Shown here one piece after another: positions 4,589-60,908 of a stretch of DNA of 64,000 nt (the stretch's first letter is position 1; each line of letters opens with the position of its first letter). This DNA is from Sugiyamaella lignohabitans. Taxonomy: Eukaryota > Ascomycota > Dipodascomycetes > Dipodascales > Trichomonascaceae. The notes below the pieces were generated by a model. That model saw only the letters and a list, made by a program, of their open reading frames with translations, was not told the DNA's origin and did not search any database. A program made the translations under genes and the position numbers. The stretch spans positions 682,001-746,000 of the forward strand of contig NC_031673.1 in the NCBI RefSeq assembly GCF_001640025.1, in the 5' to 3' direction.

Positions 4589-4734
4589 GCCTCCGGCGGC
4601 TGGGGCTCCGCCTCAGACCCTGCCTGCTCCTCTCGCTGCGCTCGAGTCGAGGCGTCGCCGGTGCCAGCGAAACTCAAAACTCCTGCGAAGCAGGAGCAGC
4701 CAGGGTCTGGGGCGGAGCCCCAGCCGCCGGAGGC
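4589..4734. repeat. GC-rich palindromic element, full copy (alpha left, beta right)
   Basis: Two inverted arms beginning GCCTCCGGCGGC and ending GCCGCCGGAGGC enclose the alpha hairpin (CTCTCGCTGCGCTCGAGTC), a spacer of about 30 bases and the beta hairpin (CTCCTGCGAAGCAGGAG). It lies 61 bases past the VPS35 stop, probably in its 3' UTR. The left-arm loop region is slightly diverged (GCCTCAG for GCCCCAG). Confidence 0.9.
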
Positions 4735-4795
4735 AGGACCCCTCTCCCAGATTATCCGGTTTAGTGTATTTATATTCAGTTATACAAAAGTAGAG

Positions 4796-7552
4796 CTACC
4801 AGACGATTTCTTGGAATTTATCGTCAACGCTTTTTTGCTGGGTTATGTACTCAAGAGTGCGCTCAAAATGCTTGCGTGGCGAGTCCGAGATCTTTTCATC
4901 AGCATTGTTGTTGAGATTGGTCTGAATCAGGTTGATGAGACCGTTGATGTACCTTACGGTAACCGCCGAATTACCGTGGTCAAAGTAGTAGATGTATCGG
5001 TTGAGGATTTCGACAAAAAGTTCAACTGACACGGCAACATCCATACAGGCATCGGCTACTCGTAGCGACCGTTGTAGACACTCGAGTACTCGCTTGTCGT
5101 CACGGAAGAGCTCTTCTTCAGTGCGACCAGGAATCTCTACAGCCCACCAAAGATGACTAGCAAGGTAAACAGCACGACATTGATCGGGTTTCTTTAACAA
5201 TTTGGAAGCATGTAATGCACACTTCGATACTAGAGTATCGTAGTTGTCTGCAGTGAAGTTTCTAGTGGATTGTAGAGCGCCCGCAATGATGCAAAGGGCT
5301 TGGAACTGGGCTCGTGAATCGGAAACAGACTCTTCATAGACAGTAAAAGCCTCGGCAAAAAACTCATAACTAGCTTCCTCAGCATTGACTTGGTCAGCCA
5401 GAGATGCAACATTGACGTAAAGACGGAGGGCAAGCTCTGATCGTCCTGAGTTGTAAAGCTCGTCAATCAAACGATGAATGAATTTGAACGAAGAACCAAT
5501 TTTGGCTGCTTTCTCAGAGTCAGATTTTCTACGTTGATATCGACGCACAAGTTTAAACGCGCTGGTAACAACCGCTGGATATGTATACTTAATACGCATG
5601 CCGCCATCACTGAGAGCCTTCTTAGCAGCTGCTAACAATTTAGCATGAACATCAGGATTTTTGTTGTAGACGAGGTGAACCAGCTGTGCAAGCTTAGATT
5701 GGTCAGCAACAATCTCTTCACTGTCGTTAGAAATATCAGGAGTGGAGGCTGTTTGTTTCTTGGTAGAGGTTCCACCAGGTGGGAATTCAGTGGAATGACC
5801 AGCAGAGGCAGTGCCGTCTTTGATGACAATAGACACTAATTCAAATACACCTTTGACATCATCGAGTTCGGTGATTTTCTTGGATTGCTTCAATACAGCA
5901 TTGATAACCGAGCCAGCAATGGCCTGTTGAGTGGATATAGGCTGTGATGAGAGCAGTGGCTGGTAGCCAGGAATTGACAACACGGTGAGGAAGTCAGGGT
6001 AGAAGTTGATAAGAGACAGGAGAAGTTCCTGGACGTTAACAGCGGCTTCTTTGTCGGCATGTAACTGTTGTTGTATCGTGGCTACATATTGGAGAATGCG
6101 ATCAATATAGTCTTTACGGTCAGGATACCAGTTAAGGGACAACTTGGCGATACCAAGTAAAAGGGCAGTTTTATCAGGCAAAGGGAGATCTGGATGTGCC
6201 TGAACAAGGCTATTGAAATGACTCCAGAACTTTTCAAACAGATTCTCACCTGAACCATTATCCTTGCCTTCAGATTCATCTTCACTAGTTGCCTTGGGCT
6301 TGTCATCACCTGTCTCAGACTCTGTTTGATTGTCGCCAACTGGTTTGGATTCCTGACTATCTCCAATAGTCACGTCGCCCAACTTCTTAGTAACATCACC
6401 ATCATCATCTTGTTCCAGTTCCTTCATTCTCGAAGAATAATCGCTCAGTCGGTTAATAAGCGACAATAGGATCTTCTTGATGCTGACACCAGGATGTAGA
6501 TTGGTGGTAGCTGTTAGGTAGAGGTCTAAAGTGTAAAGATGGAACTCGTCAGGGAACACTTGGGAAATAACGTCCAGAAGATATTCCTGAGCAAGCACAT
6601 CACGACATTGAACCACCTGCTCTAAAATAGCAGGAAGAATCGACTCTTTATAATACTCCTTATCAATACCTTCAAGTTGAGACAACCTGACAAGGTTAGA
6701 CCCAACTAAAATTTGCAGCTCTTGGCGTTCCTTGGTTCTCTTTTCACGTTCTCGACTATGACCCTGATGCTGAAGTCGGACCCACAGCTTATTCATCTCA
6801 ATAAAATTAGTGATAATAAATTGAATCGAATCCTTGAGGTTGCCTCTTAATTCGGGGTCAATAACTGGAGCACTGGTGACAGCAGAAGCCGAACCTGGTC
6901 CAGTGATAGTAGTCTCAGATCCATTTCCATTACTAGTATTAGACCTAGTATCAGCAACATTTTTCGTTTCGCCAGGACCAGCTGCCGAGTCATCACTACT
7001 GGTAGTAGCAACAGCAGCAGTAATAACACCTCCATTAGTACCGTTAACATCTTCACCGCTTGGTAAATAGTCTCTTGTTCCTTGACTCAAGTAATATCGC
7101 AAAAACAAGCCTCTAATAGGATGCTGGACACCACGACACATTTCCATCATGTCCTTCATAATCTCTCTCACTGGAGCATCTGGCACACTCATATATGCCG
7201 TACCAACCGTAATCATCAGATACAGTCTAGGAACAATGTTACCAGCATACTGAACAAGTTCATAGATATCAGCCAGATGATGATTAGGATGGTCTTCTCT
7301 AAGGAAATCGCCCAAATGTCTCAATGCATCGAATACCGCAATATACAATTCATAATATTGTTTAGGAGTAAGTACCGAACTACGAAGTTCGGCCAAGAAT
7401 GTCGATGCGTGGCGGATTGCGTCTAGTAATTTGCCTTTTGTTTCAAGACACTTTCTCATCTGATGCTCCTGTTGTCTAATAAACTGTAGCGACTCTTCAA
7501 GATGTCGAGCCTGCTCTTCAGGAGACAGTGGGGCTGGTGGGTTGGAAGACAT
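4796..7552 (-). CDS. VPS35: Retromer core subunit Vps35
   Basis: Scaffold of the retromer coat, which recycles sorting receptors such as Vps10 from endosomes to the Golgi. It binds Vps26 at its N terminus and Vps29 at its C terminus. One uninterrupted exon of 918 residues, close to the 944 of S. cerevisiae. The N terminus has the conserved PRLYLMITVG motif near residue 110, followed by the DAPVREIMKDM and HPIRGLFLRYYL blocks typical of the family. The remainder is alpha-solenoid. Two low-complexity insertions, one Ser/Thr/Gly-rich near 175-230 and one acidic near 385-430, are probably surface loops. The ATG at 7552 gives MSSNPPAPLSPEEQ; a proline-rich lead before the first helix is normal. 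Confidence 0.96.
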   Translation of the reverse strand: MSSNPPAPLSPEEQARHLEESLQFIRQQEHQMRKCLETKGKLLDAIRHASTFLAELRSSVLTPKQYYELYIAVFDALRHLGDFLREDHPNHHLADIYELVQYAGNIVPRLYLMITVGTAYMSVPDAPVREIMKDMMEMCRGVQHPIRGLFLRYYLSQGTRDYLPSGEDVNGTNGGVITAAVATTSSDDSAAGPGETKNVADTRSNTSNGNGSETTITGPGSASAVTSAPVIDPELRGNLKDSIQFIITNFIEMNKLWVRLQHQGHSREREKRTKERQELQILVGSNLVRLSQLEGIDKEYYKESILPAILEQVVQCRDVLAQEYLLDVISQVFPDEFHLYTLDLYLTATTNLHPGVSIKKILLSLINRLSDYSSRMKELEQDDDGDVTKKLGDVTIGDSQESKPVGDNQTESETGDDKPKATSEDESEGKDNGSGENLFEKFWSHFNSLVQAHPDLPLPDKTALLLGIAKLSLNWYPDRKDYIDRILQYVATIQQQLHADKEAAVNVQELLLSLINFYPDFLTVLSIPGYQPLLSSQPISTQQAIAGSVINAVLKQSKKITELDDVKGVFELVSIVIKDGTASAGHSTEFPPGGTSTKKQTASTPDISNDSEEIVADQSKLAQLVHLVYNKNPDVHAKLLAAAKKALSDGGMRIKYTYPAVVTSAFKLVRRYQRRKSDSEKAAKIGSSFKFIHRLIDELYNSGRSELALRLYVNVASLADQVNAEEASYEFFAEAFTVYEESVSDSRAQFQALCIIAGALQSTRNFTADNYDTLVSKCALHASKLLKKPDQCRAVYLASHLWWAVEIPGRTEEELFRDDKRVLECLQRSLRVADACMDVAVSVELFVEILNRYIYYFDHGNSAVTVRYINGLINLIQTNLNNNADEKISDSPRKHFERTLEYITQQKSVDDKFQEIVW

Positions 7553-8838: not shown

Positions 8839-8977
8839 GCCTCCGGCGGCTGGGGCTCCGCCCCAGACCCCGCTGCTCCTCTCGCTTCGCTCGAGTCTGT
8901 TCCGTCTCCGGTCCCAGCCAAACTCCTGCGAAGCAGGAGCAACCAGGGTCTGGGGCGGAGCCCCAGCCGCCGGAGGC
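8839..8977. repeat. GC-rich palindromic element, full copy (alpha left, beta right)
   Basis: Near-perfect inverted arms with loop TCC on the left and its complement GGA on the right, the alpha hairpin CTCTCGCTTCGCTCGAGTC, a spacer containing CCGGTCCCAGC, and the beta hairpin CTCCTGCGAAGCAGGAG. It ends 137 bases before the start of the LYR gene. Confidence 0.92.
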
Positions 8978-14520: not shown

Positions 14521-14575
14521 GCCTCCGGCGGCTGGGGCTCCGCCCCAGACCTTGGTTGCTCCTGCTTCGCAGGAG
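14521..14575. repeat. GC-rich element, single half (arm plus beta hairpin)
   Basis: One arm with loop TCC and the beta hairpin CTCCTGCTTCGCAGGAG. Spacer-like sequence (ATGGCTGGGACCGTG) follows, then the copy stops, as if a full element had lost its second half. It lies between the convergent stops of TMA64 and GPI17. Confidence 0.88.
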
Positions 14576-14675
14576 ATGGCTGGGACCGTGTACACAGGGA
14601 CTCGATCTACGGATCTCAGTTGATAGACGCAACAAAGTAAATATAATATATATGATGTCTGTGATAAATAGAGGA

Positions 14676-17388: not shown

Positions 17389-17441
17389 TAATGTGTAGTA
17401 TCTCAATGTAAATAGTTCATGTCTCTAAACATCACCAGTCA

Positions 17442-17476
17442 ACCAGGGTCTGGGGCGGAGCCCCAGCCGAAGGCAG
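17442..17476. repeat. GC-rich element fragment (one arm only)
   Basis: A 35-bp arm remnant with the intact hairpin TGGGGCGGAGCCCCA. It has lost CCGG from the outer end (GCCGAAGGC instead of GCCGCCGGAGGC). It lies between the convergent stops of MRPL1 and the 4E-binding protein gene. Confidence 0.8.
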
Positions 17477-19336: not shown

Positions 19337-20521
19337 TGAGTGGTCTGTTTCTGTTAGTCTCTCGCTTCACGAACGACTGGGAGGGGTCTATGCCTCCGGC
19401 GGCCGGGCTCCGCCCGGACCTGGTTGTGCTCGCTTCGCGAGCTGCTGAATCCGTGTTCTTGAGGTAGTTTAGAGTTTTCGTAGAGTGATAGAAGTGTTGT
19501 CCTTAAAAGCTGAACTGGTTAAAGGGGAAGAAACATATTCCATATTTTTGGGCCTACCCGGCTTTGCAAACGCAATGCTGCGTTTCGTAGACTTTGAATT
19601 GCCTAGTGGGTACCGTCATGACTCGCCGGAAAAACGAAAATGAGCCACGAAATATTGCCACTCAATGAATGACGGTGAACAATAGACATCAAAGTCTGTG
19701 GCATAGCTAGAAAATTGAGTAAGAACAACTAGAATCGTGTATCATCTGCAGTTTTCTCTGAATCTCATTCCACAGGTATTGAGTCATGACCCCTTCATTG
19801 ATTTCATTGATTTCTTTAACTGCAAACTTGATTTCTAGCTTTGTGTCATCAAACCAAAAGCTTTTAAGCCACAGACTCAATTCTCATGTTTCTAGCTCTG
19901 ACGTTGGTACCATGAGCTCCCGGTGATGAGGTCGTGTGACTAGGAGCAATCTTGGTTTTGTAACACTAACTTCAGTCTGAGAGCATTCATTTCCCTCTGT
20001 AGTCAATTTATATATTGTCGTTGTACCTCAATTCAGAGAATTCTCCTTTTATAGCCCCTGATCCCCCCTTGGGTTCGCAAATACTCCTTCCCAACATCAC
20101 ATGTTTTTCTGTCATCCGGATGGCAGTTCTATCTGCCATATCCCAGCTTCAATACATAAACCCCACAATATTCCCCTTCTGGACTTACAATCAGTAGTTA
20201 TCACCTATGGCAATAGTGAAAAAGTATGTTGTTAAACAAATCAGTGTAGGTAGACTAGAATCGAGAGATTGATAGAAATGCCGAGAAGAAGCCAGATAAG
20301 GCGATCTCGCGCAATTACTCCACAATTGCACGGCGCTACAGGTCATCGATCGATCCACAAGACCTAATCGGCGCTGACCCTGCCCTTGAAAAAATTTCAG
20401 CCGTACTATTTTATGATAGAGGTAGTAGGGAAATCAGATTCTATACAGACATAACTCATTCTGTTCTGTTCTATCTCACGGTTTTTTTTTTATTTATTAT
20501 TCTATATCCGATTGATTCAAT
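19337..20521. other. Intergenic region between the 4E-binding gene and TMA16
   Basis: Divergent promoter region of about 1.2 kb. On the minus strand just upstream of the left gene, GACTAACAGAAACAG looks like a branch site plus acceptor, hinting at a 5'-UTR intron around the GC-rich element at 19392-19442. I could not find a convincing donor. No coding exon was seen in the rest. Confidence 0.45.
19392..19442. repeat. GC-rich element, variant-B half copy
   Basis: A 51-bp half in which the arm hairpin is CCGGGCTCCGCCCGG rather than TGGGGCTCCGCCCCA, and the inner hairpin is GCTCGCTTCGCGAGC. Both stems remain fully paired. It sits 56-106 bases upstream of the 4E-binding protein start. Confidence 0.88.
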
Positions 20522-21315: not shown

Positions 21316-21911
21316 ATTATATGATAGACAACTTATGAACATATTTATAAAATTAGCATTATTTTTTCTTTAGCCTCAATCCACAAGACTATCTAGATTG
21401 TATGCTGATATCCTGTTAAATGGCAGTCTTAGTTAATTAGTCAAAAATTAATATCACTATGACACCACAATAATATATCTACTGCTCAGGGGTACGCCGA
21501 TATCGGCCCGCGATCGCAACAGTCGAGATCAGCCCAGTCATAATCTTGTAATTATAAAAGGACATTAACTTCCAGCACTCAAATAAACAGAAATTCATTT
21601 ACAATAACTACCTTCTTTATTCGAGGAAATATCTAGATTGAGTTTTGTATTGCCGTCTAAGTTTAATTCCTGTCAATTGATTTGATTGATCACGTTCACC
21701 TGTCAGTTCACTTACCGCACATCCCCTGCAGAATCTCCTGACATCTGATAAGAGATAGTGGTTAGGACGAGAACGAGTGTTTGTTTCTATTTATAAAAGT
21801 GGCATTTCGAGAATCCAATAAATATAAATACTCTTGGTACCCCAGATTTCAGATTTTAGGGTACATAACCTTAATTTTAATTTTCACACTCATTTCCCAA
21901 AAATTTCCAAA
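21316..21911. other. Intergenic region before the methyltransferase gene
   Basis: About 600 bases with the TMA16 3' end and the methyltransferase promoter. AT-rich. An in-frame extension of the methyltransferase frame back to 21834 starts with TTG and is not favoured. No other feature seen. Confidence 0.5.
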
Positions 21912-22730
21912 ATGTCTAAAGAAACAGCTGAATACACCCATGGCCATCACGAATCCGTTCTTCGTTCCCACACATGGAGAACAGTAGACAATTCAGTCAA
22001 GTTCCTGGTTCCATATCTCAAGCCCGACTCGTATGTTCTCGATGTTGGCTGTGGTCCTGGTACAATTACAGTGGACATGGCGAAAAATTATACGCCCAAA
22101 GGAAAGATTATTGGCATGGAGTATGCTGGTTCAGTATTAGAACAAGCAGCAGCTCATGCTAAAGAGAACAATGTGACGAACATTGAGTTTGCAGTTGGTG
22201 ACGTTCACAATCTGAGCTACCCAGACAATACATTTGACATTGTGTTCGCACATCAAGTGGTTCAACACATTGGTAACCCCGTTGTTGCACTTAAAGAAAT
22301 GGCACGAGTTGTCAAACCCGGTGGAGTCGTTGCCATCCGTGACTCTGACTATGCCGGATTCTTCTGGTACCCCGAACTCCCTGCTCTTAAGAAATGGCAA
22401 GAAGTCTACCTCAAAGTGGCCAAGGCCAATGGAGCCGAGCCCAATGCCGGCCGTCACTACCACTCATGGGCCCATCAAGCCGGACTTGACCAACCCAAAC
22501 TAAAACTGTCCTCCAGCACCTGGTTCTACTGGACCCCGGAAGAAAGGGCCTGGTGGAGCAGTCTGTGGGCCGACCGTACCCTCAAATCCAATTTTGCGAC
22601 AACCGTGCTCAAACACGATCTCGGCACCCAAGACGACCTCGAAGAAATTGCCCAGGGCTGGCGCGACTGGGGCAAAGACAAAGATGCCATCTTCAACCTC
22701 GCCCATGTGGAGCTCATCTACCAAAAGTAA
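21912..22730 (+). CDS. Class I SAM-dependent methyltransferase (UbiE/Coq5-like)
   Basis: 272-residue protein with a clear class I methyltransferase core: motif I YVLDVGCGPGTITVDMA at residues 41-57, the acidic end of strand 2 in IIGMEYAGS, motif II near FAVGDVHNLSYPDNTFDIVF, and ARVVKPGGVVAIRD for motif III. This arrangement is typical of UbiE/Coq5/Methyltransf_11 proteins that act on small molecules, but the substrate cannot be read from the sequence. No presequence or membrane segment is visible, so it is probably cytosolic and not Coq5 itself. The first ATG (21912) gives MSKETAEYTHGHHESVLRSH. The 3' half is richer in C and G in third codon positions than its neighbours, which may reflect strong expression or a different history. 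Confidence 0.85.
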   Translation: MSKETAEYTHGHHESVLRSHTWRTVDNSVKFLVPYLKPDSYVLDVGCGPGTITVDMAKNYTPKGKIIGMEYAGSVLEQAAAHAKENNVTNIEFAVGDVHNLSYPDNTFDIVFAHQVVQHIGNPVVALKEMARVVKPGGVVAIRDSDYAGFFWYPELPALKKWQEVYLKVAKANGAEPNAGRHYHSWAHQAGLDQPKLKLSSSTWFYWTPEERAWWSSLWADRTLKSNFATTVLKHDLGTQDDLEEIAQGWRDWGKDKDAIFNLAHVELIYQK

Positions 22731-22795: not shown

Positions 22796-22846
22796 GCTCG
22801 CGAAGCGAGCACAACCAGGTCCGGGCGGAGCCCGGCCGCCGGAGGC
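22796..22846. repeat. GC-rich element, variant-B half copy
   Basis: Inner hairpin GCTCGCGAAGCGAGC and arm hairpin CCGGGCGGAGCCCGG. Opposite orientation to the copy at 22903-22953, with arm ends facing each other across 56 bases. Confidence 0.88.
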
Positions 22847-22902
22847 ACTCAGACCCACCCGAGGTGCATTGATCGCCGGACCCTGCGTCTCACCGGGGTG
22901 AT

Positions 22903-22953
22903 GCCTCCGGCGGCCGGGCTCCGCCCGGACCTGGTTGTGCTCGCTTCGCGAGC
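22903..22953. repeat. GC-rich element, variant-B half copy, inverted partner
   Basis: Almost identical to the reverse complement of 22796-22846, and to the copy at 19392-19442. The pair forms a large inverted repeat of about 158 bp downstream of the methyltransferase gene. Confidence 0.88.
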
Positions 22954-23429: not shown

Positions 23430-23687
23430 GTAAGTCCTTCGAACCCCACCACACTTCTTCGAGGTGTGATAGCTCCTGGGTGGGGGTCACAGTCTCCCGG
23501 TGGAGCCTGAACCTCCGGCGGCTGGGGCTCTGCACCAGGCCCCGTAGCTCTTGCTTCGCAAGAGTTTGCTGGGACCGTCAAGAAATCGACTCGAGCATAG
23601 CGAGAGGAGCCACGGGGTCTGGGGCAGAGCCCCAGCCGCCGGAGGCAACACCCCCACCCCGAAAAACACCACTAACTAACCAGCCAG
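23430..23687 (+). other. Probable 5'-UTR intron of PGM2 carrying a GC-rich element
   Basis: A strong donor GTAAGT at 23430 is followed, just before the PGM2 start, by ACTAACTAACCAG and then CCAG. That is the branch-site/acceptor layout of the coding introns in this window. The acceptor could be at 23683 or 23687. About 136 of its 258 bases are a full GC-rich element. Not proven; transcript reads would decide. Confidence 0.65.
23512..23646. repeat. GC-rich palindromic element, full diverged copy (beta left, alpha right)
   Basis: The left beta hairpin is CTCTTGCTTCGCAAGAG, a paired C-G to T-A change relative to CTCCTGCTTCGCAGGAG. The spacer contains CTGGGACCGTC. The alpha hairpin on the right has changed (GAGCATAGCGAGAG). 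It ends 44 bases before the PGM2 ATG, inside the probable 5'-UTR intron. Confidence 0.88.
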
Positions 23688-25403: not shown

Positions 25404-25462
25404 GCCTCCGGCGGCTGGGGCTGCGCCCCAGACCCCCATGCTCCTCTCGCTTCGCTCGAGTC
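25404..25462. repeat. GC-rich element, single half (arm plus alpha hairpin)
   Basis: Arm with loop TGC in TGGGGCTGCGCCCCA, then the alpha hairpin CTCTCGCTTCGCTCGAGTC, then spacer-like bases GATACGTCTGGTGCC. Located between the convergent stops of PGM2 and YKU80. Confidence 0.9.
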
Positions 25463-25574: not shown

Positions 25575-27867
25575 CTAACTGAGAAGGTCTTCCAGTTTGA
25601 TGTCAGTGTCGGTAGCCACCCGCTTGGACGCTTCTGCCTCTTGTTTGACCTTTTGTTTCTCGCTCTTCTTGGTCTCCACTACTTTGATATCTAAGAGCTG
25701 GCTCAGTCGGTCTGTCGTGGGCTTGAGTTGATCAAGTCGCCCTGCTGGTGGATGCGAGTACTTAACCAGCTCTGGCCACACCGGAGGAACAAAATTCTTT
25801 GCCCCAGTTAATCCGGCCACTTTGATGGCATTTCGCAGTCTATGCAATACTGGATTAAATGTGTCTTCACAGGTCATATACTCGGTTGGCTCTCCATCTT
25901 CGTCTGGTTCTCCGGCATGCTCCAAGTCCATTTCATCAATATAATGGCTCATGAGATCGTTCATCTCTGTAGTGGGCTCCCGGTTAATACGCTGTGGATT
26001 ATCAGGTGGCAATATTTTACCTGACTTGGATTTAATTTCGAGCAAACTTGGGAACTGGAATTTCCGGTAGTCTTGTGAAAATGGTAGAATATTAAGAATA
26101 AGCGCTTGGAAGTCAACATCGACGTATGGACTTAATAGCACCATATGTGCATCTTTTTCTGGTTTGGCCACATATCGAGCAATGGCAACACGGTCATCCA
26201 GCTGCAACGTCAGGATCATTGCTGACATGGCGAGCTGATCTTTTTTGCGTGCTTCAGGGCTTACAACGATATAATCTGATGCTTCCATCAAATACCATCT
26301 AGGGACATCTTTTGCGCTACAAAATCCGTAGATAGAAAGCTCTGGACTGTTTGAAAGATGGATACTGCTCAACTCCTTTTTTGTTTCAGCATCGAAAGTA
26401 ACAATTTCAGACCCAAATCTATAGCCTTTAAGTAGATTTTGCCGTTCTAAAATGATTCTGTTATCGGGATTTTGCTCCCCTTCTCCATTCTCATCTTTTA
26501 CTTTTTCAACATAATAATCACGAACAAAGTGCACAGTCACTTTTCGATCATTAAACTCGTCGTCTTCGGATTCACCACCGTCATCATCAGGCCTTTTACG
26601 TTTGACAATAACAGACTTCGCTGTGGGAACACGCGTTCTTCTGGTGCATGGATAGCCATACACCGGAATGGTTATTGTGTTTTCTTCATCAATGACATGT
26701 TTCACGCTTTCTGAGTCCTCAGTGGGCCTTCCCAACCGCAGTACTCCCTTGAATTGCCTTAGTACGCCAACTGGCTGAACCACTGGTTTACTAACGTAAA
26801 AATACGCCTCCTCGTAGGGTGCAAACATATACATATCGTCGGGCCTACCATCACTGTCAGGTGGGTAATAATCACGCTCAATATTTTGCAATTCCTCAAT
26901 GTTGGACTGTCGGATTTCTTTCTCAAATGTAGTCAGCTCATCTCCGCTATCTTTCATTCCAATCATCAAAATACGTAGGACAATATTAGCGGCCTTCAGA
27001 CGCTTCACCAAATCAGGAACCTTCTTGAAATCCATCTCACCCGTCCCATTTGTAATGAGACAAATCATTTTTTTGAACTTAAGATGTTTGCATTCAGTGT
27101 TAATGAGCTCTATAGCTTCGTTCACACCATCGAGAACTGTATTAGTTAGCACACAATTCATACTCAACCACTCATGACCACACTTCCCGGTGGCCTCGAA
27201 GATTACTGGCAAACTCAAATCCCGACTCGAGCGAAGCGAGAGGAGCCACGGGGTCTGGGGCAGAGCCCCAGCCGCCGGAGGCAGGCCACCAATGGCCTCA
27301 CTTACCATCTCCTTCGGTTCCTATGTGCTGTCTCAGTTTCCGCGACAGCCGTCTGAGGTCGCTAGCTTCAAACCTGTTCGTTAATATATTGCCACATCCA
27401 TTTATAAAAATCAACTTACTTTTGAATAGGAAAGAATGGCGTTACATGTTTGCTTCGGAATTCAACATCTGAATTGTTAGTATCTCCAAAGGGCGTGTGT
27501 AAATGTTTATTGAGCAAAACCCTGGTAGAAAGAGCACAGCGGAAACTTACCTGATGTTCTAACTCCGAGTACACCGACCATGTCCTTTTTACGCCCACGA
27601 AGGATCTGTGAAGTTAGTTTTGATGTAATAATCATGGCCCGAGCTATTTTTCGATGAAAAGTCCCAAGATTGCCATACCTTGTCTCCAATTTTATCATTG
27701 ACCCATGTCATGGCCCACTCGATATCGGTTTGTTCACGGCCGTCATGCTGTTCGTTCATGCTCTGGCTGACGTCCAGCACAAACACAGTAGCCTATAGAT
27801 TCTCGTTAGTCTGATTTTTCAAAGTGTAATTGACGTTTTATGGCAAACTCACTTCCTTGTCAGTCAT
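25575..27867 (-). CDS. YKU80: Ku80 DNA end-binding subunit, six exons
   Basis: Partner of Ku70 in non-homologous end joining and telomere protection. Proposed CDS: complement(join(25575..27136,27306..27373,27420..27468,27551..27605,27679..27792,27853..27867)), 620 residues, all phases matching. The spliced N terminus reads MTDKEATVFVLDVSQSMNEQ, the start of a Ku vWA domain, then KILRGRKKDMVGVLGVRTS, then LRRLSRKLRQHIGTEGD joined to VLDGVNEAIELI. Most acceptors sit behind a TAAC branch site (GACTAAC, AACTAAC, TACTAAC, ATTAAC, GCTAAC). The central Ku barrel is at about 200-440, and a helical C-terminal arm follows. There is no long C-terminal DNA-PKcs extension. Intron 5 (27137-27305) contains a half GC-rich element. 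Read unspliced, the frame would translate that repeat, a false N terminus. Confidence 0.88.
27224..27282. repeat. GC-rich element, single half, inside YKU80 intron 5
   Basis: The alpha hairpin GACTCGAGCGAAGCGAGAG followed by an arm with loop AGA (TGGGGCAGAGCCCCA). It makes up about 59 of the 169 bases of the reconstructed intron, away from donor, branch site and acceptor. Confidence 0.9.
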
Positions 27868-40425: not shown

Positions 40426-40485
40426 GCCTCCGGCAGCTGGGGCTCCGCCCCAGACCCCGCTGTTCCTCTCGCTGCGCTCGAGTCG
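40426..40485. repeat. GC-rich element, single half (arm plus alpha hairpin)
   Basis: Arm with GGCAGC in place of GGCGGC at the outer end, an intact TGGGGCTCCGCCCCA hairpin, and the alpha hairpin CTCTCGCTGCGCTCGAGTC. Located between the WDR8 start and the ARO3 stop. Confidence 0.88.
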
Positions 40486-40630: not shown

Positions 40631-42771
<2,141 letters not shown>

Positions 42772-42899
42772 GCCTCCGGCGGCTGGGGCTCCGCCCCAGA
42801 CCCTGTGGCTCCTGCTTCGCAGGAGGTTCGTGGACGGAACGACTCGAGCGCAGCGAGAGGAGCAGCGGGGTCTGGGGCGGAGCCCCAGCCGCCGGAGGC
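42772..42899. repeat. GC-rich palindromic element, full copy (beta left, alpha right)
   Basis: Left arm with loop TCC, beta hairpin CTCCTGCTTCGCAGGAG, 15-base spacer GTTCGTGGACGGAAC (itself partly palindromic), alpha hairpin GACTCGAGCGCAGCGAGAG, and right arm. At 128 bp it is the shortest full copy. It lies 324 bases upstream of ARP10. Confidence 0.92.
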
Positions 42900-44294: not shown

Positions 44295-44427
44295 TGCCTC
44301 CGGCGGCTGGGGCGTTGCCCCAGACCCCACTGTGCTCGCTGCTCGAGCAGCCTAGTTGCCCAAGGCTCGATTCGAGCGAAGCGAGAAGAGCAACGGGGTC
44401 TGGGGCAGCGCCCCAGCCGCCGGAGGC
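44295..44427. repeat. GC-rich palindromic element, full diverged copy
   Basis: Arm hairpin loops differ from other copies (GTT on the left, AGC on the right), while the TGGGGC/GCCCCA stems are intact. The left inner hairpin is altered (TGCTCGCTGCTCGAGCA); the right is alpha-like (GATTCGAGCGAAGCGAGA). It begins 20 bases after the ARP10 stop, between convergent ARP10 and PWP1. Confidence 0.9.
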
Positions 44428-46198: not shown

Positions 46199-48156
46199 TT
46201 TTTTTTCAAGTTTTCTTTAATCTTTTATCCACCGTTTAAACTATTAAACTTGGATATCAGAATTGATATACAGCAGACGTGAAGTTTCAGTGATCTGCAA
46301 AAAAAAATATCATTTATCGGAACCCTGACCGCTATCATTTTCTGTGCCATTGTCATGTGACTGAACTCTTAATATACCTGGTCCTAATAAATCAATATTA
46401 ATTCCTTGCTCTTATTCTGAAGGAAACTTTTAGCAGTTACATATTGACTTGAGCTGTTGGTGCTTCTTAAAGCAGAACACAGCTAGGGTCTATATCAGAT
46501 AGCTCCCCCTGGAGTATCGAGGTACGGGGGTTAGTGGTGAACTGGTTCATAAAAGAGAACTGACCTAGGGCGCAACAGCGTTGTTTGAGCTTCCCTGAAT
46601 AGTGTCTCCAGACCCTCGAATTCAACTAGTATTTCCTGGTCCAGTTCATATAATGAGCACTGCCAGATGAATCGACCAAAATTAAGTCTCCGCCTGGTCT
46701 CGTTCCAAGTATTATTTCCATCCCGTTGTTGGCTGGACTCTGCAGGTGTACAGACTAAGGGTGCAAATGATTGTATCCCCTGTTTATGGCATTTGAATCC
46801 ATGAGTAAGTGAAGTACAAGTGAAATTATATAATTCTCGTTTGTTTCTTATTGACAGATATATAAGTAATCATATTTTCACCAGTTTTAATCTGCCGAAT
46901 AAGTGGCATATGTGTTGAGCCTTCACCTTTTCATTTTCTATGCTGATACCATTGCTGCTGGATTCCTTTAGATTCAAGCTTCGTGAACAGTCCCAAGGCC
47001 TGACTCGATTGAAGCGAGAGGAGCAGCGGCGTCTGGAGTGGAGCCCCAGCCGCCGAAGGCATCTAACTGTTCCATGACTCTATCACCATATTAGCTCATG
47101 ACAGTAATACAATTGGGAGAAGTTTACAATTGTAGACTGTCAAATAAAGGACAGAAAACTAAACGAAGGGACTTAAGAGCTATATTCATAATCATCCATA
47201 AAACACAGAGTTAAGCACAATACATTTTAACTTTGGACCCTGCATATACCTGCATGCATGTGGTGCACGTCGAATTAGAAAGTAAAGGAGCTGATTATAT
47301 TCTGTTCAGAGGCACTAGATCCCACATACGCCACCCAAATGACTTGGGTCTGTTTTCTGGGATTTTGGATGGGACAGAACTTTTTTCTGATTCTTTCAAT
47401 TCCAGCAGCAACCAGTTTGTCAGTAGGCAAGACACTGATCGTCACTGCGGAGAAAGGTTGAGCTTTATGAGATACTGGACTATATCATGAACTATATCGA
47501 ATTTGGCTAAGCTATTTATTAGTAGAGTGTTCCATCCCAAGAACGCTATTTGGCCTCTCATGCCTGGACAATAAACCAGAAACCAGAAAAATTGGATCTA
47601 TGTCAGACGGTGGAAATTATCTGCCAATCTAACACGGTTCAGAGACTCACTCTATTAGAATCCTATATTTCCGTGATATACCTAATCCCACTAGATTCTT
47701 GAAGCGCCGAGTGACTTTAAATAAAATGGCTACAATATCTACTTAAACCCGCAATTCGATTATTCCAAGCCCATCACGTGACCTATATCATAGATTCCCC
47801 TGAGATCTCCTTTTGAGGCAGCAGTATAGCTGAATAAATGTCTTTCACTTGCAAAGTGACTTTATCAATAAATTTCCATGTTTCTCTCCTATCTTAACTG
47901 TTTTTATAAGCCTATAACGTGGTTATAATGATCCCCGAGATGGGGCCGTCGTAAGTAACCCTTGTTTTTCGTCCCATAATCTTTGAGGACCATCTCCATA
48001 AAAATGGTTGTAACTCCCGCTTTTTCTTCTCTTTTTCTTCTTTATCTAGTAAAACAATTCTGCCTGCTAAGTTTGCACACCGTTATTGTTCCAAGATCTT
48101 TTTAACCAGCGTTTCACTACTATTATCGTTTTTATTATCACTTGTTCTACTTAAGA
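46199..48156. other. Intergenic region between PWP1 and the PIP kinase gene
   Basis: About 2 kb between divergent genes. It contains a decayed GC-rich half element at 47002-47060 and a TCACGTGA site at 47774-47781, about 380 bases upstream of the kinase. A GTAAGT at 47951 with pyrimidine-rich sequence and TCTAG near 48049 could mark a small 5'-UTR intron. A frame at 47233-47490 starts with TTG and has no domain. Confidence 0.45.
47002..47060. repeat. GC-rich element, decayed single half
   Basis: Recognisable alpha hairpin remnant (GACTCGATTGAAGCGAGAG) and arm (TCTGGAGTGGAGCCCCAGC, then CGCCGAAGGC) with several unpaired changes. This is the only clearly eroding copy in a long intergenic region, which contrasts with the intact pairing of copies next to genes. 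Confidence 0.8.
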
Positions 48157-53946: not shown

Positions 53947-54082
53947 GCCTCCGGCGGCTGGGGCTCTGCCCCAGACCCCGTAGCTCCTGCTTCGCAGGAG
54001 ATGGCAGGGACCGTCGACGTATCGACTCGAGCGAAGCGAGAGGAGCCACGGGGTCTGGGGCAGCGCCCCAGCCGCCGGAGGC
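53947..54082. repeat. GC-rich palindromic element, full copy (beta left, alpha right)
   Basis: Left arm loop TCT, beta hairpin CTCCTGCTTCGCAGGAG, spacer with GGGACCGTCGACG, alpha hairpin GACTCGAGCGAAGCGAGAG, right arm loop AGC. Located between the convergent stops of NMT1 and COX5. Confidence 0.92.
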
Positions 54083-54234: not shown

Positions 54235-54729
54235 TTATTCGTCGTCGTCAGAAGGACCCTTGGAAGGCGATTGGACTTGGTTGTAGCCAGTGAAGGGGTT
54301 GGCGTTCTTCTCGGCAAGCTTCTCGTTGGCAGCCTCTTGCCATTCCTTGTTCATGGTGTGAGGTAGAGATGGAGACAACAATCTGATGGTGGTGAAAAGA
54401 GTAGCGGCGCCGAGAATCACTGCAGCAATGCCCTTAACAATTCTGCCGGCATCGCCAGGAGCGTGGATGGGCTTTCTGGGGCCCCAGGCACCGTAGGAAA
54501 TGTACCAAGCAGCACGCTTCTCGGCAACAGTCAACTCGGCCCACGAGCCCTTTTGTCTCTCGGCCAATTGAGCAACGATATCTGAACGCTCCTCCTCGCT
54601 CATAGCCTCCCAACGACTCTCAAGGTTAACCAAGGTAGGGTTAGAAATAGCGTGGGCTTGACGACGGGCCACTGGTGCAGCGGCACGAGCCAAGCTGGGT
54701 CTAGCAACAGATCTGAAACCACGAAGCAT
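54235..54729 (-). CDS. COX5: Cytochrome c oxidase subunit 5 (COX4 family)
   Basis: Nuclear-encoded inner-membrane subunit of complex IV, corresponding to yeast Cox5a/5b and mammalian COX4. The 164 residues begin with an Arg/Ala-rich presequence (MLRGFRSVARPSLARAAAPV). The matrix domain follows, with LVNLESRWEAMSEEERSDIV and GSWAELTVAEKRAAWYISYG, both characteristic, and then one transmembrane helix (IVKGIAAVILGAATLFTTI). The C-terminal intermembrane part contains EWQEAANEKLAEKNANPFTG. Only one copy is seen here, so the 5a/5b split does not apply from this window. The start codon sits two bases after a likely acceptor of a long 5'-UTR intron. Confidence 0.95.
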   Translation of the reverse strand: MLRGFRSVARPSLARAAAPVARRQAHAISNPTLVNLESRWEAMSEEERSDIVAQLAERQKGSWAELTVAEKRAAWYISYGAWGPRKPIHAPGDAGRIVKGIAAVILGAATLFTTIRLLSPSLPHTMNKEWQEAANEKLAEKNANPFTGYNQVQSPSKGPSDDDE

Positions 54730-54730
54730 T

Positions 54731-55542
54731 CTGGGATTCTGTTAGTACGGTTCTTTTTGAGGTGGGGGTCTGCCTCCGGCGGCTGGGGCTACGCCCCAGA
54801 CCCCGTGGCTCCTCTCGCTTCGCTCGAGTCGGGCGTCGGGGAGAAATGGAGTGTGGGCTTGGGGGTTTTTTGTTTTGATAGTGAAGTTGTTAAGGGGTGA
54901 GAGACAGCAGAAGTCATGAGATGAAAATGCTAATGAGAACCAGAACTGAACTGAAGACGAAAAAAAGAACTGGACTGAACTGAAATAACAGATAAACTGA
55001 AATAAAGCAACAGTCAGGTCAGACAGAACACAACTTAGCTCAACTGAGCTGGCTGAACTGAATACTGAGATTGCACAATCAGCTGAGGTAGCACCGAACA
55101 AATAGCAGGCTTGAATGAGAACAAGAGAGTCACTGTATTAAAGGAAGTCCTAATCACAACAGTCTCTACTCATTGTTCCACATAAGAGAACTAAATATGA
55201 AATTTCATGCTCAGGGTACAAGACTCTCGTGGTCCGGCATGAACTTCTAACCATTGCCCAATGGGATTGCTCGAGATCGAGTATGACAACTGAAATTTGA
55301 TTCACCGACTCGAGACCATCGTTACAAATGATTACCATACAAATAACATTATACCAACTATTGTCATAAACAATTGTCATCTATGACTTCTCTAAAACTC
55401 CAGTCCACTGTTCAAGCCATATCTATACTGAGCCAATCGAATACAAGATAACCTCACTGACTTATTCCTATTGACCCGCACGGATCCAACCCTGTTCTAT
55501 CCATTCTCGACACTTCTCTATTCGTATAAATCAATAACTTAC
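54731..55542 (-). other. Probable 5'-UTR intron of COX5 carrying a GC-rich element
   Basis: On the minus strand, GTACTAACAGAATCCCAG immediately precedes the COX5 ATG: a perfect TACTAAC branch site plus CAG acceptor. A good donor GTAAGTTA begins at 55542, preceded by an ATG-free pyrimidine/CA-rich leader. The predicted intron is 812 bases and contains the half element at 54772-54830. Donor choice is the weaker part. Confidence 0.55.
54772..54830. repeat. GC-rich element, single half (arm plus alpha hairpin)
   Basis: Arm loop TAC in TGGGGCTACGCCCCA, then the alpha hairpin CTCTCGCTTCGCTCGAGTC. It lies 43-101 bases upstream of the COX5 ATG on the other strand, within the probable 5'-UTR intron. 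Confidence 0.9.
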
Positions 55543-56463: not shown

Positions 56464-56524
56464 TGCCTCCGGCGGCTGGGGCTCCGCCCCAGGCCCTGGT
56501 TGCTCCTCTCGCTTCGCTCGAGTC
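56464..56524. repeat. GC-rich element, single half (arm plus alpha hairpin)
   Basis: Arm with TGGGGCTCCGCCCCA and alpha hairpin CTCTCGCTTCGCTCGAGTC, followed by spacer-like GGCGTGGGGCCGTCC. In non-coding DNA downstream of the doubtful small ORF. Confidence 0.88.
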
Positions 56525-57845
56525 CGGCGTGGGGCCGTCCGGACTTCGGGGATTTCGTCAATTGGGCGATGAAGACCGACCAAAACTGTAACGAAATCAA
56601 ATGTCACTTTGCTGTTTAGCTCTAAACAACTTAGACTTGGATGACTTAGTCCAGAAGAAAAAATAAAATTGATAAACCCCCTGGAACTATAATTGTTACT
56701 CATCAAATATCCCACGATATCCAGATGGTCCTCCTAGTTATTGGATAACTGACAACAGTCAGGACCCGAAGAACATGGCAGCTACGAACTTTGGGGGGGG
56801 ACAGTCTCTAAACACCGGGTAACTTCTGAGGCCTCCAACTCATACATACCGTGTCAAATACTTCCTTTTTCTTCCTTAGTATTCCTAATTCCGCCTAATT
56901 CATTAAAGTTGAGCTTTCCTTGATCATCTCTCAAAATTTATTGACAAGTCACTGAATCCCTCAGAAATATAAAGAGAAGTTAGTACATGAAATGCAACGT
57001 GATATATGAAAAAGCAGCTGGTATGGAATGTCGAGTCCAAAACATTTAGCCGATTGGATGGATATCCAGATACAATCTTGTATTTCCAGCTTGTAGCATT
57101 CAATTCTACCTCTAGATTAATATTTCTAGTCATATGGCGAATCGCGAGCGAAAAGTCGGATCCTTACCACCAGGTAACCAGCGCCTACCCCTGAGGGATC
57201 GGCAAAAAGCACTTATTATCCCGGTATTAACATGGCGATCAATTCATTTAGCCCAGTCAAATTCAACAGACCTTTCTTCAATTCTGATTAAAATAAAATA
57301 ACTGGTTTCAATCAGACTATTATTACTACAAAGGACTCTTTATCTCAGAATTCAGAAAATAAGTTTAGAAAATGGTAGATCCCGTTATATGTATAAAGCG
57401 GGATAGGTGTGCTAAAATTCGTGACACCGGTCGGTTATTAGATAGTAATTGGCAAGCGATTAAGAGGGCTACTAATACGGTAATTGTTATAATTGATTAT
57501 AAATTACAATAAGACCAGGTGGAATTTGACATTTCTGGTCTATAGCTTATTTATTTTCACTTTATCCAATAGCTAATATGCAACCCAGATAACCAGTACA
57601 ATATATATAGTTGATTACAAAAGTATAAGAAAAATATAGTCCAATTGGCCATTGAGACAAAACAAAGTCTTATAAAAGTAAAGAATGATAACCATTGAGC
57701 GACAAAAGCCAGCGTTGATGTTGGGCTCGACATGCAGGTCGTGCAAATCAGTCTGGCACAGGGCACATTCTCTATCAGAGCACCAGACTATGAACAAAGA
57801 TTACTCGAGCAATCGTAAGTAAATGGTACAAAATCGAGAGCAAAG

Positions 57846-57897
57846 CCCGCGAAGCGAGAACAACGGGGTCTGAGGCAGCGCCCCAGCCGCCGGAGGC
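57846..57897. repeat. GC-rich element, half copy with shortened inner hairpin
   Basis: Inner part CCCGCGAAGCGAGAACAACG and an arm containing CTGAGGCAGCGCCCCAG, where one stem pair is lost (GAGGC against GCCCC). A decaying copy in a long intergenic region. Confidence 0.82.
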
Positions 57898-57918
57898 AGA
57901 CCGAGTCCAGCTATCTCC

Positions 57919-57968
57919 GCATGACGTCCCCCAGTTCACGCCTCGATATTGGCATTTCCAGCTGGCAG
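57919..57968. repeat. Diverged direct repeat, copy 1
   Basis: About 50 bp shared with 58511-58562: GCATGACGTCCCCCAGTTCA, then CGCC, then ATTGGCATTTCCAGCTGGCA. About 80 percent alike by eye. Copies are about 590 bp apart in the same orientation. Confidence 0.65.
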
Positions 57969-58015
57969 TATGGACCCAAGACGAATATCCAGACTACTAT
58001 CTCCAGCTGATCTGG

Positions 58016-58150
58016 CAGAGGATCTGGGATGGATGTAGTTGACTCGACATGGGTGTACCCGACTAAAATATCTGATCGTGCAGAGGATCTGGCGTGGATG
58101 TAGTTGACTCGACATGGCTTACCCGACTATGGAGTTGACTTACCCGACTA
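58016..58150. repeat. Imperfect tandem repeat, about 65-bp period
   Basis: Two copies of about 50 bp (58016-58065 and 58081-58129) sharing CAGAGGATCTGG, GGATGTAGTTGACTCGACAT and CCCGACTA, plus a third partial copy GAGTTGACTTACCCGACTA ending at 58150. Confidence 0.75.
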
Positions 58151-58510
58151 ATGTCTCCATATGGTCGAATTCAATCAGTATTTCCTTTGGTATCAGACTC
58201 TCGATATTTCTTAATAAGTTTCTGAATTCCTCTGAGCGAGGAAATTAAAATAAATAAAAATTTGAATAAAAAAATAAAATATTTCCCAAATTATAAAATT
58301 GAGGGGTTACCCGGAGTATAAATCAGTAGCTTAAAGCTGGGTAATACTGAAAACAAAAGTCCCATTGGTGGTAGGGCACTTAAATAGCTTCGATAAGCAC
58401 ATCCAAAAAGTAGTTAGTAGAAATCAGAGAGTAGCAGCTCAACGGCAAACATTCGCGGAATTGTGGTTTCTAAACCCGGGGAACAAACCACCCAGTTCCT
58501 GCTGGCGGGA

Positions 58511-58562
58511 AGCACGTGACTTTCCCCAGTTCACGCCTTAATGTTGGCATTTCCAGCGGCAG
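58511..58562. repeat. Diverged direct repeat, copy 2, with a CACGTGA site
   Basis: Second copy of the 57919-57968 sequence (CCAGTTCACGCC, then TTGGCATTTCCAGC). At its left edge TGACGTC of copy 1 is replaced by CACGTGA (58513-58519), a Cbf1/Met4-type site, about 480 bases before the permease ATG. Confidence 0.65.
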
Positions 58563-58675
58563 GGAGCCGTCGAGCGGTTAGGTTTACTGATAAGCATCGG
58601 ACGCCGGTTGCGACCATGCGGAAAAAAAAAGTCAATTCAATCGTGGATAAAATACCAGTAGCAAGGCCAAGCACC

Positions 58676-58734
58676 GACTCGAGCGAAGCGAGAGGAGCCA
58701 TGGGGTCTGGGGCAGAGCCCCAGCTGCCGGAGGC
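58676..58734. repeat. GC-rich element, single half (alpha hairpin plus arm)
   Basis: Alpha hairpin GACTCGAGCGAAGCGAGAG and arm with loop AGA; the outer end reads AGCTGCCGGAGGC (one change). Located 265 bases upstream of the permease start. Confidence 0.88.
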
Positions 58735-58998
58735 ATTTCCCCGGATATTTTCCGGCCATTGGGGACGGATTGATTTTGGCAAGGCACAGATAACGCAACA
58801 ACATGTGACCAGGAATATGCAAGATAAGAATCGCAGGTAATTTCGTAATAAATGTGGAAGAGTTATATAACAGTTGACCATCGCTCTTTTGACTAATACA
58901 TTTTAAGGATCTGATTTCATGGCAAGTCGGCCGGTTTTTACTTGATCTGTTTATTTTGGGTTTGTAATTGTGGACCAATTTCGTCAGAAGGAGGTGAA

Positions 58999-60726
58999 AT
59001 GGCTTCTGAGACGAGTAGCTTGCTTAGTCGGCAGACAGGCTCGCAGCAGCATCTGGAAGTTGGTGCCGTTTCTAATCACGCCAATATTAATCGTGGAAAT
59101 AATAGCAACGCCAGTGGTAATTCGAGTGACAGTGGCAAGGGCAATGGAAATAGCAACGGGAAACTGTACAGAGAAGACCATATGGAAGAGGAATTCGATA
59201 CTCAGACAATAGCTTCATACGATAGTGTGTATAATAGTGATATTGATAATGGAGTGCCTTTTGATCCAGAACATGGCCATGCTCATAGAAAAACACTGGG
59301 AATCCCTACTGCGACATTCCTGATGCTGAATAAAATGATTGGAACTGGAATTTTCAGTATTCCCTCGTCGGTTTATGAGTTGACAGGCTCGGTAGGCTGG
59401 AGTCTTGTTCTGTGGATCTTTGGCGGGCTGATCGCTTACTCGGGTCTCAATGTGTACCTGGAATTCGGAGTGGAAATCCCTAAATCAGGATCGGAAAAGA
59501 ACTACCTCGAAAGAGTATTCCGAAGACCCAAACATTTGGCTCTTGTGACGTTTGCAGTTTCGTATCTTTGTTTGAGTCACTCGACCAGCAATTCATATGC
59601 GTTTGGCTTGTATATCCAGCTGGCAGCTGGAGTTAAAGAAACAAGTGAGAGTTATACTCGAGTGATTGCTGTGATTACGGTATTATCATGCATCCTGCTT
59701 CATGGAATATTCCCCAGAGCAGGCAGATATTTATTTAATGCGCTGGGATTCTTTAAAGTGGTTGTTCTTGGTATCATCACCATGAGCGGGTTTCTGGTTC
59801 TTATTGGAGCTATTAAACTGGACAATCCCCCAGACAATTTCACCAACATGTTCCAGAACGACGGAATGGGCGGTGATGTATACAGCATATCAATCGCATT
59901 GCTACGAGTGTTTTTCTCGTACCGAGGATGGGACAATTGTAACACAGTTATGGGCGAGATTAGGAACCCTGCTCATACAATGGGTATTGCTGGTCCACTT
60001 GCTATTGGAATGGTGATGTTTTTCTACTGTTTCTGCAACATTGCGTATTTTGCCGTGGTATCGAAGCAAGAAATCGCTGATTCAGGAGTCATTGTTGCTG
60101 GCAAGTTCTGTCAGATCATTTTCGGAGACTCCGTAGCTGCCCGAGTACTACCATTTTTCATTGCCCTTTCAAACCTGGGAAATATCCTTGTAGTGAGCTA
60201 TGCAGCTTCGCGAGTGACTGCCGAGCTTGGAAAACACTATCTGATTCCATTCTCGCCCATTATCTCTTCATACAAACCATTCAACACGCCATTTGTCGGA
60301 TTACTGATGCACGCCAGTCTGACTGTCATTCTTCTTGTGGTACCTCCACCCGGACGAGTGTACGAGTTTGTTGTCGACCTGTCGACATACCCCATCACAT
60401 TCATATCATTTTCAGTAACGGCAGGACTTATCTACCTCCAATTCAACCGAGTCAAGGAGAACTGGGGCAACAAACCCGGCAGCTACCATGCCCCATTGTA
60501 CCATTCAGTAGCATACCTACTCACAAACCTGTTCCTCATCATTGTCCCCTGGATCCCTCCTCCCTACGAGCTCAAACCCGGCTCGTTCCCCTACTACGCG
60601 GTCCCACTCGGCGGTATCATCATCATGACCGCCGGACCTCTTTACTGGCTCCACTGGCGCAACTCGGAAAACGCTGCCCGCCTCGACGCCGAGATCGAAA
60701 AAGGGCTCTACCTCCAAACGAGCTAA
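58999..60726 (+). CDS. MUP1: Methionine permease-like transporter (Mup1 family)
   Basis: Plasma-membrane amino-acid transporter of the LAT-type APC branch that includes yeast Mup1/Mup3. The 575-residue protein has a hydrophilic N-terminal tail of about 95 residues (Ser/Asn/Gly-rich, with an acidic patch EEEFDTQ), then about 12 transmembrane segments. TM1 carries the substrate-binding GTGIFSIPSSV loop (MLNKMIGTGIFSIPSSVYEL). Other blocks: GGLIAYSGLNVYLEFGVEIP, IALLRVFFSYRGWDNCNTVM, and LSTYPITFISFSVTAGLIYL. The frame is open upstream to 58942, but the first ATG in good context is 58999 (MASETSSLLSRQ). A CACGTGA site upstream suits sulphur-amino-acid control by Cbf1/Met4. The substrate is inferred from family resemblance. 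Confidence 0.87.
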   Translation: MASETSSLLSRQTGSQQHLEVGAVSNHANINRGNNSNASGNSSDSGKGNGNSNGKLYREDHMEEEFDTQTIASYDSVYNSDIDNGVPFDPEHGHAHRKTLGIPTATFLMLNKMIGTGIFSIPSSVYELTGSVGWSLVLWIFGGLIAYSGLNVYLEFGVEIPKSGSEKNYLERVFRRPKHLALVTFAVSYLCLSHSTSNSYAFGLYIQLAAGVKETSESYTRVIAVITVLSCILLHGIFPRAGRYLFNALGFFKVVVLGIITMSGFLVLIGAIKLDNPPDNFTNMFQNDGMGGDVYSISIALLRVFFSYRGWDNCNTVMGEIRNPAHTMGIAGPLAIGMVMFFYCFCNIAYFAVVSKQEIADSGVIVAGKFCQIIFGDSVAARVLPFFIALSNLGNILVVSYAASRVTAELGKHYLIPFSPIISSYKPFNTPFVGLLMHASLTVILLVVPPPGRVYEFVVDLSTYPITFISFSVTAGLIYLQFNRVKENWGNKPGSYHAPLYHSVAYLLTNLFLIIVPWIPPPYELKPGSFPYYAVPLGGIIIMTAGPLYWLHWRNSENAARLDAEIEKGLYLQTS

Positions 60727-60772
60727 TGACCTTTATAGACTATGCATTTGTTTTACTTCCAGATGGGGTACT

Positions 60773-60908
60773 GCCTCCGGCGGCTGGGGCTCTGCCCCAG
60801 ACCCCGCTGCTCCTCTCGCTCCGCTCGAGTCGTTCCGTCGACGGTCCCAGCTATCTCCTGCGAAGCAGGAGCTACGGGGTCTGGGGCAGAGCCCCAGCCG
60901 CCGGAGGC
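60773..60908. repeat. GC-rich palindromic element, full copy (alpha left, beta right)
   Basis: Arms with loops TCT and AGA, alpha hairpin CTCTCGCTCCGCTCGAGTC, spacer CGTCGACGGTCCCAGC, beta hairpin CTCCTGCGAAGCAGGAG. Both arms and the beta stem pair perfectly. It sits between the convergent stops of the permease and PAS-kinase genes, 47 bases after the first. Confidence 0.93.

Follow-up and report, generated by a model that had tools for sequence, protein, structure and literature searches.

The stretch of DNA considered here (hereafter the window; G000:C4:682001-746000, 64 kb) belongs to the yeast Sugiyamaella lignohabitans (Trichomonascaceae), whose assembly comprises 15,932,016 bases in four contigs. 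It contains protein-coding genes, among them those for a phosphoglucomutase and for an NMT1-like protein with nearest named matches in Trichomonascus vanleenenianus (65%) and Blastobotrys adeninivorans (63%), and numerous copies of a short GC-rich element built of hairpins (Table 1). The unit of this element, referred to below as a half, is about 52–60 nt long and consists of an arm (GCCTCCGGCGG), the hairpin CTGGGGC-TCC-GCCCCAG, a short linker, and a second, inner hairpin of the alpha, beta, gamma, or delta type. A half may stand by itself, or two may be joined in fixed inverted orientation into a full copy of about 136 nt.

Element copies and their anatomy

All seven full copies listed by the original prediction, an earlier reading of this DNA, were found within 1 nt of their predicted positions, and its at least twelve single halves agree with the at least 12 found here (arm with three mismatches or fewer; false or shifted matches, e.g., 54498-, were dropped), to which one more, degenerate half near 17440-17476 is added. 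Of the two smaller fragments that it also mentioned, the one directly before 53947 is visible. Among the 31 perfect hairpins of the 64 kb with a 7-bp stem and a 3-nt loop, 28 lie inside the listed element ranges and three outside.

Table 1. Copies of the hairpin element in the window (positions within the window; ORF, open reading frame; UTR, untranslated region)
Feature	Position	Strand	Context
Full copy, alpha left/beta right	4589..4734	+	62 bp past Vps35 gene stop (ORF 4796-7552, -; Vps35 domain)
Full copy, alpha left/beta right	8839..8977	+	between divergent ORFs
Single beta half	14521..14579	+	10 bp past eIF2D-like gene stop; 97 bp from convergent PIG-S gene stop
Degenerate single half	17440..17476	-	repeat family D1
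Single gamma-variant half	19391..19442	+	among 38 exact genomic copies
Single gamma-variant half, exact copy	22796..22847	-	about 65 bp past stop of methyltransferase-like ORF 21834-22730 (named by eye)
Single gamma-variant half, exact copy	22902..22953	+	
Full copy	23511..23646	+	between GTAAGT (23430) and CTAAC..CAG directly before ATG (23691) of phosphoglucomutase gene
Single alpha half	25404..25462	+	49 bp past stop of phosphoglucomutase gene (ATG 23691)
Single alpha half	27224..27282	-	within frame-compatible 169-nt intron (27137-27305, -) of Ku-domain gene
Single alpha half	40426..40484	+	147 bp past stop of ORF 40631-41776 (-)
Full copy, beta left/alpha right	42772..42899	+	divergent intergenic
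Full copy, gamma-like left/alpha right	44296..44427	+	between convergent genes, 21 and 68 bp from stops
Single alpha half, diverged	47002..47060	-	
Full copy, beta left/alpha right	53947..54082	+	69 bp past NMT1-like stop codon; older fragment directly before
Single alpha half	54772..54830	+	upstream of ORF 54235-54729 (-)
Single alpha half	56465..56523	+	
Single gamma-like half	57839..57897	-	adjoins different dispersed repeat (57922-58562)
Single alpha half	58676..58734	-	
Full copy, alpha left/beta right	60773..60908	+	between convergent amino-acid permease and kinase genes, 47 and 76 bp from stops

The 19-nt arm TGCCTCCGGCGGCTGGGGC has 5342 exact copies in the genome (2675 + 2667) and none when read backwards; together with the concentration of perfect hairpins in the element ranges, this demonstrates that the element is more than a product of chance. 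Copies are present on all four contigs (C1, C2, C3, C4), and thus the element is not confined to one contig. The contigs bearing it are megabase-sized and carry spliceosomal introns and nuclear genes, in line with the predicted dispersal in a nuclear genome. The family is larger than had been stated, amounting to thousands of copies in nuclear chromosomes.

Single halves are not remnants of full copies. The 52-nt gamma-variant half has 38 exact copies in the genome, 15 of which (one a near copy) were placed in six stretches, with flanks that looked unrelated except for one pair within a 98%-identical local duplication (L083), and the 70-nt alpha half, tail included, has 16. Halves dispersed as exact copies would have spread by themselves. 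Moreover, many single alpha halves end in a tail of their own, similar to TCGGGCGTGGGG, instead of the spacer of the full copies, so that the claim that single halves often keep part of the spacer holds only in part. An origin of the halves by deletion from full copies, which had seemed likely at first sight, is rejected in view of this independent, conserved tail and by the exact 52-nt and 70-nt copies.

A detailed survey covered 264 kb, made up of the window and twenty stretches of 10 kb each from contig C1; nine of the twenty had been picked for holding element matches, and thus the density in this set is biased upward. In the survey set and additional selected loci (good matches or intron cases), 78 full copies were typed, most often 135–138 nt long: 57 alpha/beta, 10 alpha/gamma, three alpha/alpha, two delta/delta, and six other or unclear. 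The inner hairpins are therefore not always a combination of alpha and beta, as had been claimed. Lone arms, 101 in number, are distributed as 58 alpha, 16 gamma, 10 beta, seven delta, two gamma2, and eight unclear.

In the 57 alpha/beta copies, conservation is 0.98 in the arms and 0.78 in the spacer. The arm hairpin is perfectly paired in 229 of 246 candidates (first 11 nt matched within one mismatch), 206 as CTGGGGC/GCCCCAG and 17 as CCGGGC/GCCCGG. Similarly, the inner stems exist in several matched versions (CTCCTGC/GCAGGAG, 52; GCTCGC/GCGAGC, 21; CTCTTGC/GCAAGAG, four; GCTCCGC/GCGGAGC, three; and others), in most of which the loop is TTC. Thus, the stems keep their pairing despite changes of letters. 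Rearranged copies are also seen, e.g., one with an inverted gamma loop (L013:7577), one reduced to a perfect hairpin (L017:4217), and a nest of copies three deep (L022:767-1259).

Three tandem gamma halves with a period of 68 nt occupy L022:7105-7299, and L015:8130-9110 contains three diverged repeat units, each with a beta half at the same place, these halves differing at one position only, and with an older decayed half in two units and not in the third. The chromosome ends (L039, C1:1-1200; L040, the right end of C1) bear repeats with AT-rich perfect hairpins that share the three-base loop of the inner hairpins (TTC, or GAA on the opposite strand), such as TTTAGGC-TTC-GCCTAAA and ATTTTGC-TTC-GCAAAAT, which are a possible cousin of the inner hairpins of the element. 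L023:1-5991 is a long internally repeated stretch with units 84–94% identical, possibly a gene for a repetitive protein; the 10-kb stretch L023 holds no GC-rich element at two mismatches or fewer.

Location in introns and after stop codons

Splice signals and reading frames indicate that many copies sit in putative spliceosomal introns, downstream of the 5' splice site and upstream of the branch point. Both signals occur within 80 bp around nine of 107 element clusters, compared with 0.6% of 4000 random placements. A wider scan yielded 12 element-bearing intron candidates, 11 of them frame-compatible, and 24 short frame-compatible candidates free of the element; GTAAGT or GTATGT is present in 13 of the latter. 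Genome-wide, GTAAGT precedes an exact arm by 4–34 nt in 202 cases, against 18 for the strand-reversed control ACTTAC, and by 35–65 nt in only 27; GTTAGT, the reversed branch point, is found 8–38 nt before an arm in 284 cases, a count made without the strand-reversed control. The arrangement of GTAAGT and arm is seen in 36 of 38 short loci that were retrieved; by a permissive rule of unmeasured chance rate, 35 of these 36 have an AG and a sequence resembling a branch point downstream, no more than 140 nt away.

The element similarity ends 11–29 nt from the 5' splice site and 31–45 nt from the 3' end of the intron in 23 full cases, and the flanks are unrelated. Removal of the element leaves an intron of 43–70 nt in these full cases and of 39–133 nt in 12 half cases; one 80-nt intron (C1:831513) consists mostly of a half, with about 28 nt remaining. 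A reading frame across the putative splice was found in 26 of 30 candidates, some of them weak, the four others being YOP1-like and Mdm35-like genes (resolved later), a 5'UTR intron, and one case without a frame (L044). Among seven spliced products compared with Pfam, four have a domain above the cut-off across the junction (C1D, HORMA in a MAD2-like protein, F-actin cap alpha, and UPF0203); in the other three, JAB spans the junction below the cut-off, TB2_DP1_HVA22 lies beside the junction only, and the fragment of the Ku gene has no match, the Ku domain being present in the downstream ORF of that gene. The full copy at 23511-23646 reads as lying in a 5'UTR intron of the phosphoglucomutase gene.

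The element-free pattern GTAAGT..ACTAAC..AG gives 403 rows (control, 78) at 15–45 nt and 230 (control, 75) at 46–76 nt, where a single intron may yield several rows. Comparing these with the element-bearing counts, we estimate that between a quarter and two fifths of spliceosomal introns may carry the element. PMC5499181 quotes 5% of split genes for S. lignohabitans; the genome-wide pattern counts suggest more introns. Annotation may have overlooked introns filled by the element.

Coding exons are nearly free of the element. ORFs of at least 300 aa make up 41.5% of the 264 kb and hold two of 105 element clusters, with 43.6 expected, both of them near a start codon and between splice signals; at lower thresholds the numbers are three against 45.8 (at least 250 aa) and five against 47.7 (at least 200 aa). 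The element accumulates in the first 100–150 bp after stop codons. For 79 ORFs of at least 150 aa in the survey set, an element between convergent genes being counted for both, the density per kb after the stop codon is 5.45 (0–50 bp), 3.06 (50–100), 1.58 (100–150), 0.35 (150–200), 1.30 (200–300), 0.34 (300–500), and 0.62 (500–1000), so that the first 50 bp are about nine times denser than the last interval. Before the ATG, the densities in the same bins are 0.79, 0.53, 2.16, 0.28, 0.86, 0.64, and 0.72. An element starts within 200 bp of 38 of 77 gene 3' ends. The end of full copies nearer to the gene is alpha in nine cases, beta in seven, and gamma and delta in one each, i.e., there is no preferred orientation; single halves after stops are arm-first in seven cases and reversed in three. 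An ORF set made earlier by cruder means put 38% of the intergenic halves between convergent genes, where 17% of intergenic positions lie. The location in introns and directly after stop codons was not part of the original prediction.

Insertion, selection, and competing explanations

In 146 arms with clean flanks, the nucleotide at position -1 is T in 90% and that at -2 is C in 55%, and positions -14 to -4 are G-rich (0.36–0.59, compared with 0.23 in the genome) on either outer side when the flank is read in the direction of the element. The left flank ends with CT and the right one begins with AG, which is an inverted, not a direct, relation. Abutting target-site duplications were looked for at 43 full copies and 92 single halves, with no signal; at the ends of the single beta and gamma halves, the direct-repeat comparison gives a mean of 1.70, and permuted pairs give 1.66. 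No tail of the retroposon kind was seen at the copies inspected. This agrees with the prediction of an element without an ORF, a tail, or an obvious target-site duplication.

Left and right flanks pair no more than permuted pairs do; for intron copies, pairing is even a little lower (z 1.6 to 2.4). If the G-rich flank paired with the ACCCC linker, in the manner of IS200/IS605 target choice, the two should covary within copies; no such covariation is seen among 250 halves, although the near-invariant linker makes this comparison weak. Paralogous empty sites were sought at the dispersed repeat beside 57897, where no copy is interrupted by the element among the matches listed; the L015 triplication is too diverged to serve for such a comparison. 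That dispersed repeat (57922-58562, also in L034-L038) is different from the element, about 640 nt long, with an internal tandem unit and 48 matches at 25 candidate places, 72–97% identical apart from itself.

No coding partner was seen in the sequence inspected, the search being thin. No long transposon with element ends emerged either: five loci with clustered gamma halves share only element copies and bits of the 57922-58562 repeat among the matches listed. Known RNA families gave no match at the gathering score in the window, and among 30 candidates from a protein collection none reached an E-value of 0.001 with the element translated in one reading frame. A bacterial or viral origin was considered and rejected, the 24-mer core being found in only four scattered GTDB stretches and in no viral contigs. 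RVT_1 has 13 matches in the genome, and the elements themselves lack tails and duplications. The RVT_1 genes have long open frames, with identical scores and lengths at several places (1145 aa and 116.1 bits at three), which suggests recent retroelement copies.

Mobility is the best explanation for exact copies dispersed among unrelated flanks, and the copies would thus have arisen by insertion. We consider it rather probable that they represent a non-autonomous nuclear mobile hairpin element that inserts without duplication and accumulates in the transcribed untranslated parts of genes. Since copies are several-fold fewer at more than 150 bp past the stop codon than in the 3'UTR zone, tolerance alone is insufficient to account for the location pattern. 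Insertion might favour transcribed DNA, through R-loops, nascent RNA, or exposed single strands; selection would afterwards clear copies from coding exons and 5'UTRs. The introns would have existed before the element arrived in them, and the gaps to the branch point and to the 5' splice site would reflect selection for splicing. A hairpin-recognising single-strand transposase and template-switch repair at hairpins seem to be the most likely mechanisms; both would fit the anatomy. A more specific reading, on which our opinion is evenly balanced, is that the element is the nuclear equivalent of mitochondrial GC clusters and of bacterial interspersed mosaic elements (BIMEs), namely, a hairpin parasite that enters transcribed DNA or nascent RNA, has settled in roughly a quarter to two fifths of the spliceosomal introns of this yeast and in around half of its 3'UTRs, and survives by being spliced out or by lying past the stop codon.

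Several points weigh against this explanation. Insertion is deduced from one assembly, and selection alone could produce part of the location pattern. No transposase was identified, the profile search having been aimed at RVT_1 only and not at PF01797 or the DDE families. The G-rich flanks on both outer sides of full copies are unaccounted for by a random target, and neither left/right nor flank/linker pairing explains them. One single half has a 12-nt abutting match, and direct repeats of at least 7 nt occur in the 50-bp flanks of 10 of 43 full copies (mean 4.0 and maximum nine in 100 shuffles), with four of at least 8 nt (shuffled mean 1.3, maximum four) and two of at least 9 nt (mean 0.2, maximum one); these excess repeats sit at varying distances. 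The bump at 100–150 bp before the ATG (eight elements, 2.16 per kb) misfits simple exclusion from 5' regions; some of these elements may be in 5'UTR introns.

The copies could instead be signals useful to the host, serving 3'-end formation, RNA stability, or splicing, and held by selection after an ancient spread. The conserved arms, the stems paired through matched changes, the element at 38 of 77 gene 3' ends, and the three beta halves that stay at the same place in the diverged L015 triplication with one position differing all speak for such a role, but full copies after stops have no preferred orientation, one and the same element is found in introns as well as at 3' ends, half of gene ends do without it, and conserved arms are equally expected from a requirement of mobility combined with recent spread; we thus regard this explanation as unlikely. 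It is still harder to believe that the element made its host introns, as an introner bringing or recruiting splice sites, given that the similarity stops short of both intron ends in the 23 full cases, that the great majority of copies are outside introns, and that introns without the element do not differ in their signals and are of comparable length, although a large share of introns bear the element, the residual introns around full copies fall in a narrow range of short lengths, and the 80-nt intron at C1:831513 is mostly a half.

An ordinary miniature inverted-repeat transposable element (MITE) of a cut-and-paste DDE transposon, with degraded or very short duplications, would have the terminal inverted arms, small size, high copy number, and lack of an ORF observed here, and the T at -1 in 90% of arms could hide a short duplication. 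However, one-armed halves spread as exact copies and no abutting duplication is seen, while a DDE partner lies outside the searches made; this origin seems very improbable.

Significance and comparison with known systems

Budding yeasts are textbook examples of genomes with few introns and few repeats. If confirmed, the element would burden splicing and 3'-end formation in a new way, offer a natural experiment on the amount of structure that a short intron tolerates, and open a route to a mechanism of nuclear mobility without duplication. The old question of how GC clusters and double-hairpin elements move would become accessible to experiment in a nuclear setting where ordinary genetics applies. 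A further warning is that, in genomes of this kind, introns filled by the element may escape annotation. In open-licence papers, no earlier description of a nuclear counterpart was found.

Bacterial repetitive extragenic palindromic (REP) sequences and BIMEs are single hairpin units and inverted pairs, located in untranslated DNA near gene ends, without duplication, and associated with RAYT transposases. The element resembles them in having hairpin units alone or in inverted pairs in untranslated DNA, and differs in having two hairpins per half and in its intron location, which has no bacterial counterpart. Double-hairpin elements (DHE) of fungal mitochondria have a unit of two short-loop hairpins, which, going by their description, is the likeness to the nuclear element studied here. 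With MITEs, it shares small size, lack of coding capacity, high copy number, and, in full copies only, terminal inverted repeats; unlike in MITEs, no duplication was found, and single halves have one arm and yet look mobile. Retroposons of the short and long interspersed nuclear element types differ by their target-site duplications and 3' tails, neither of which was seen here.

Introners are defined by similarity reaching near both splice boundaries (PMC9860276, section 5); passages of that paper name Pezizomycotina as introner-bearing fungi, and its main text contains none of the words yeast, Saccharomyc, or Sugiyamaella. One repeated element in many introns of one genome is a common feature; under this definition, nevertheless, our element is not an introner, since its similarity stops short of the splice boundaries and most copies are non-intronic.

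Mitochondrial GC clusters of Saccharomyces and Nakaseomyces, as described in PMC4478555 and PMC5499181, are short GC-rich palindromic non-coding sequences that merge and shuffle and are thought to be mobile. The element is likewise a short GC-rich palindromic dispersed non-coding repeat, but it is nuclear, tied to introns and 3' ends, and devoid of the AG/ACT duplication described for the clusters, and thus is not itself a mitochondrial GC cluster. We claim membership neither in these clusters nor among REP/BIME, and suggest by analogy that the element works like one or the other; the initial impression that it stands closer to REP/BIME or to mitochondrial GC clusters than to an ordinary MITE is supported.

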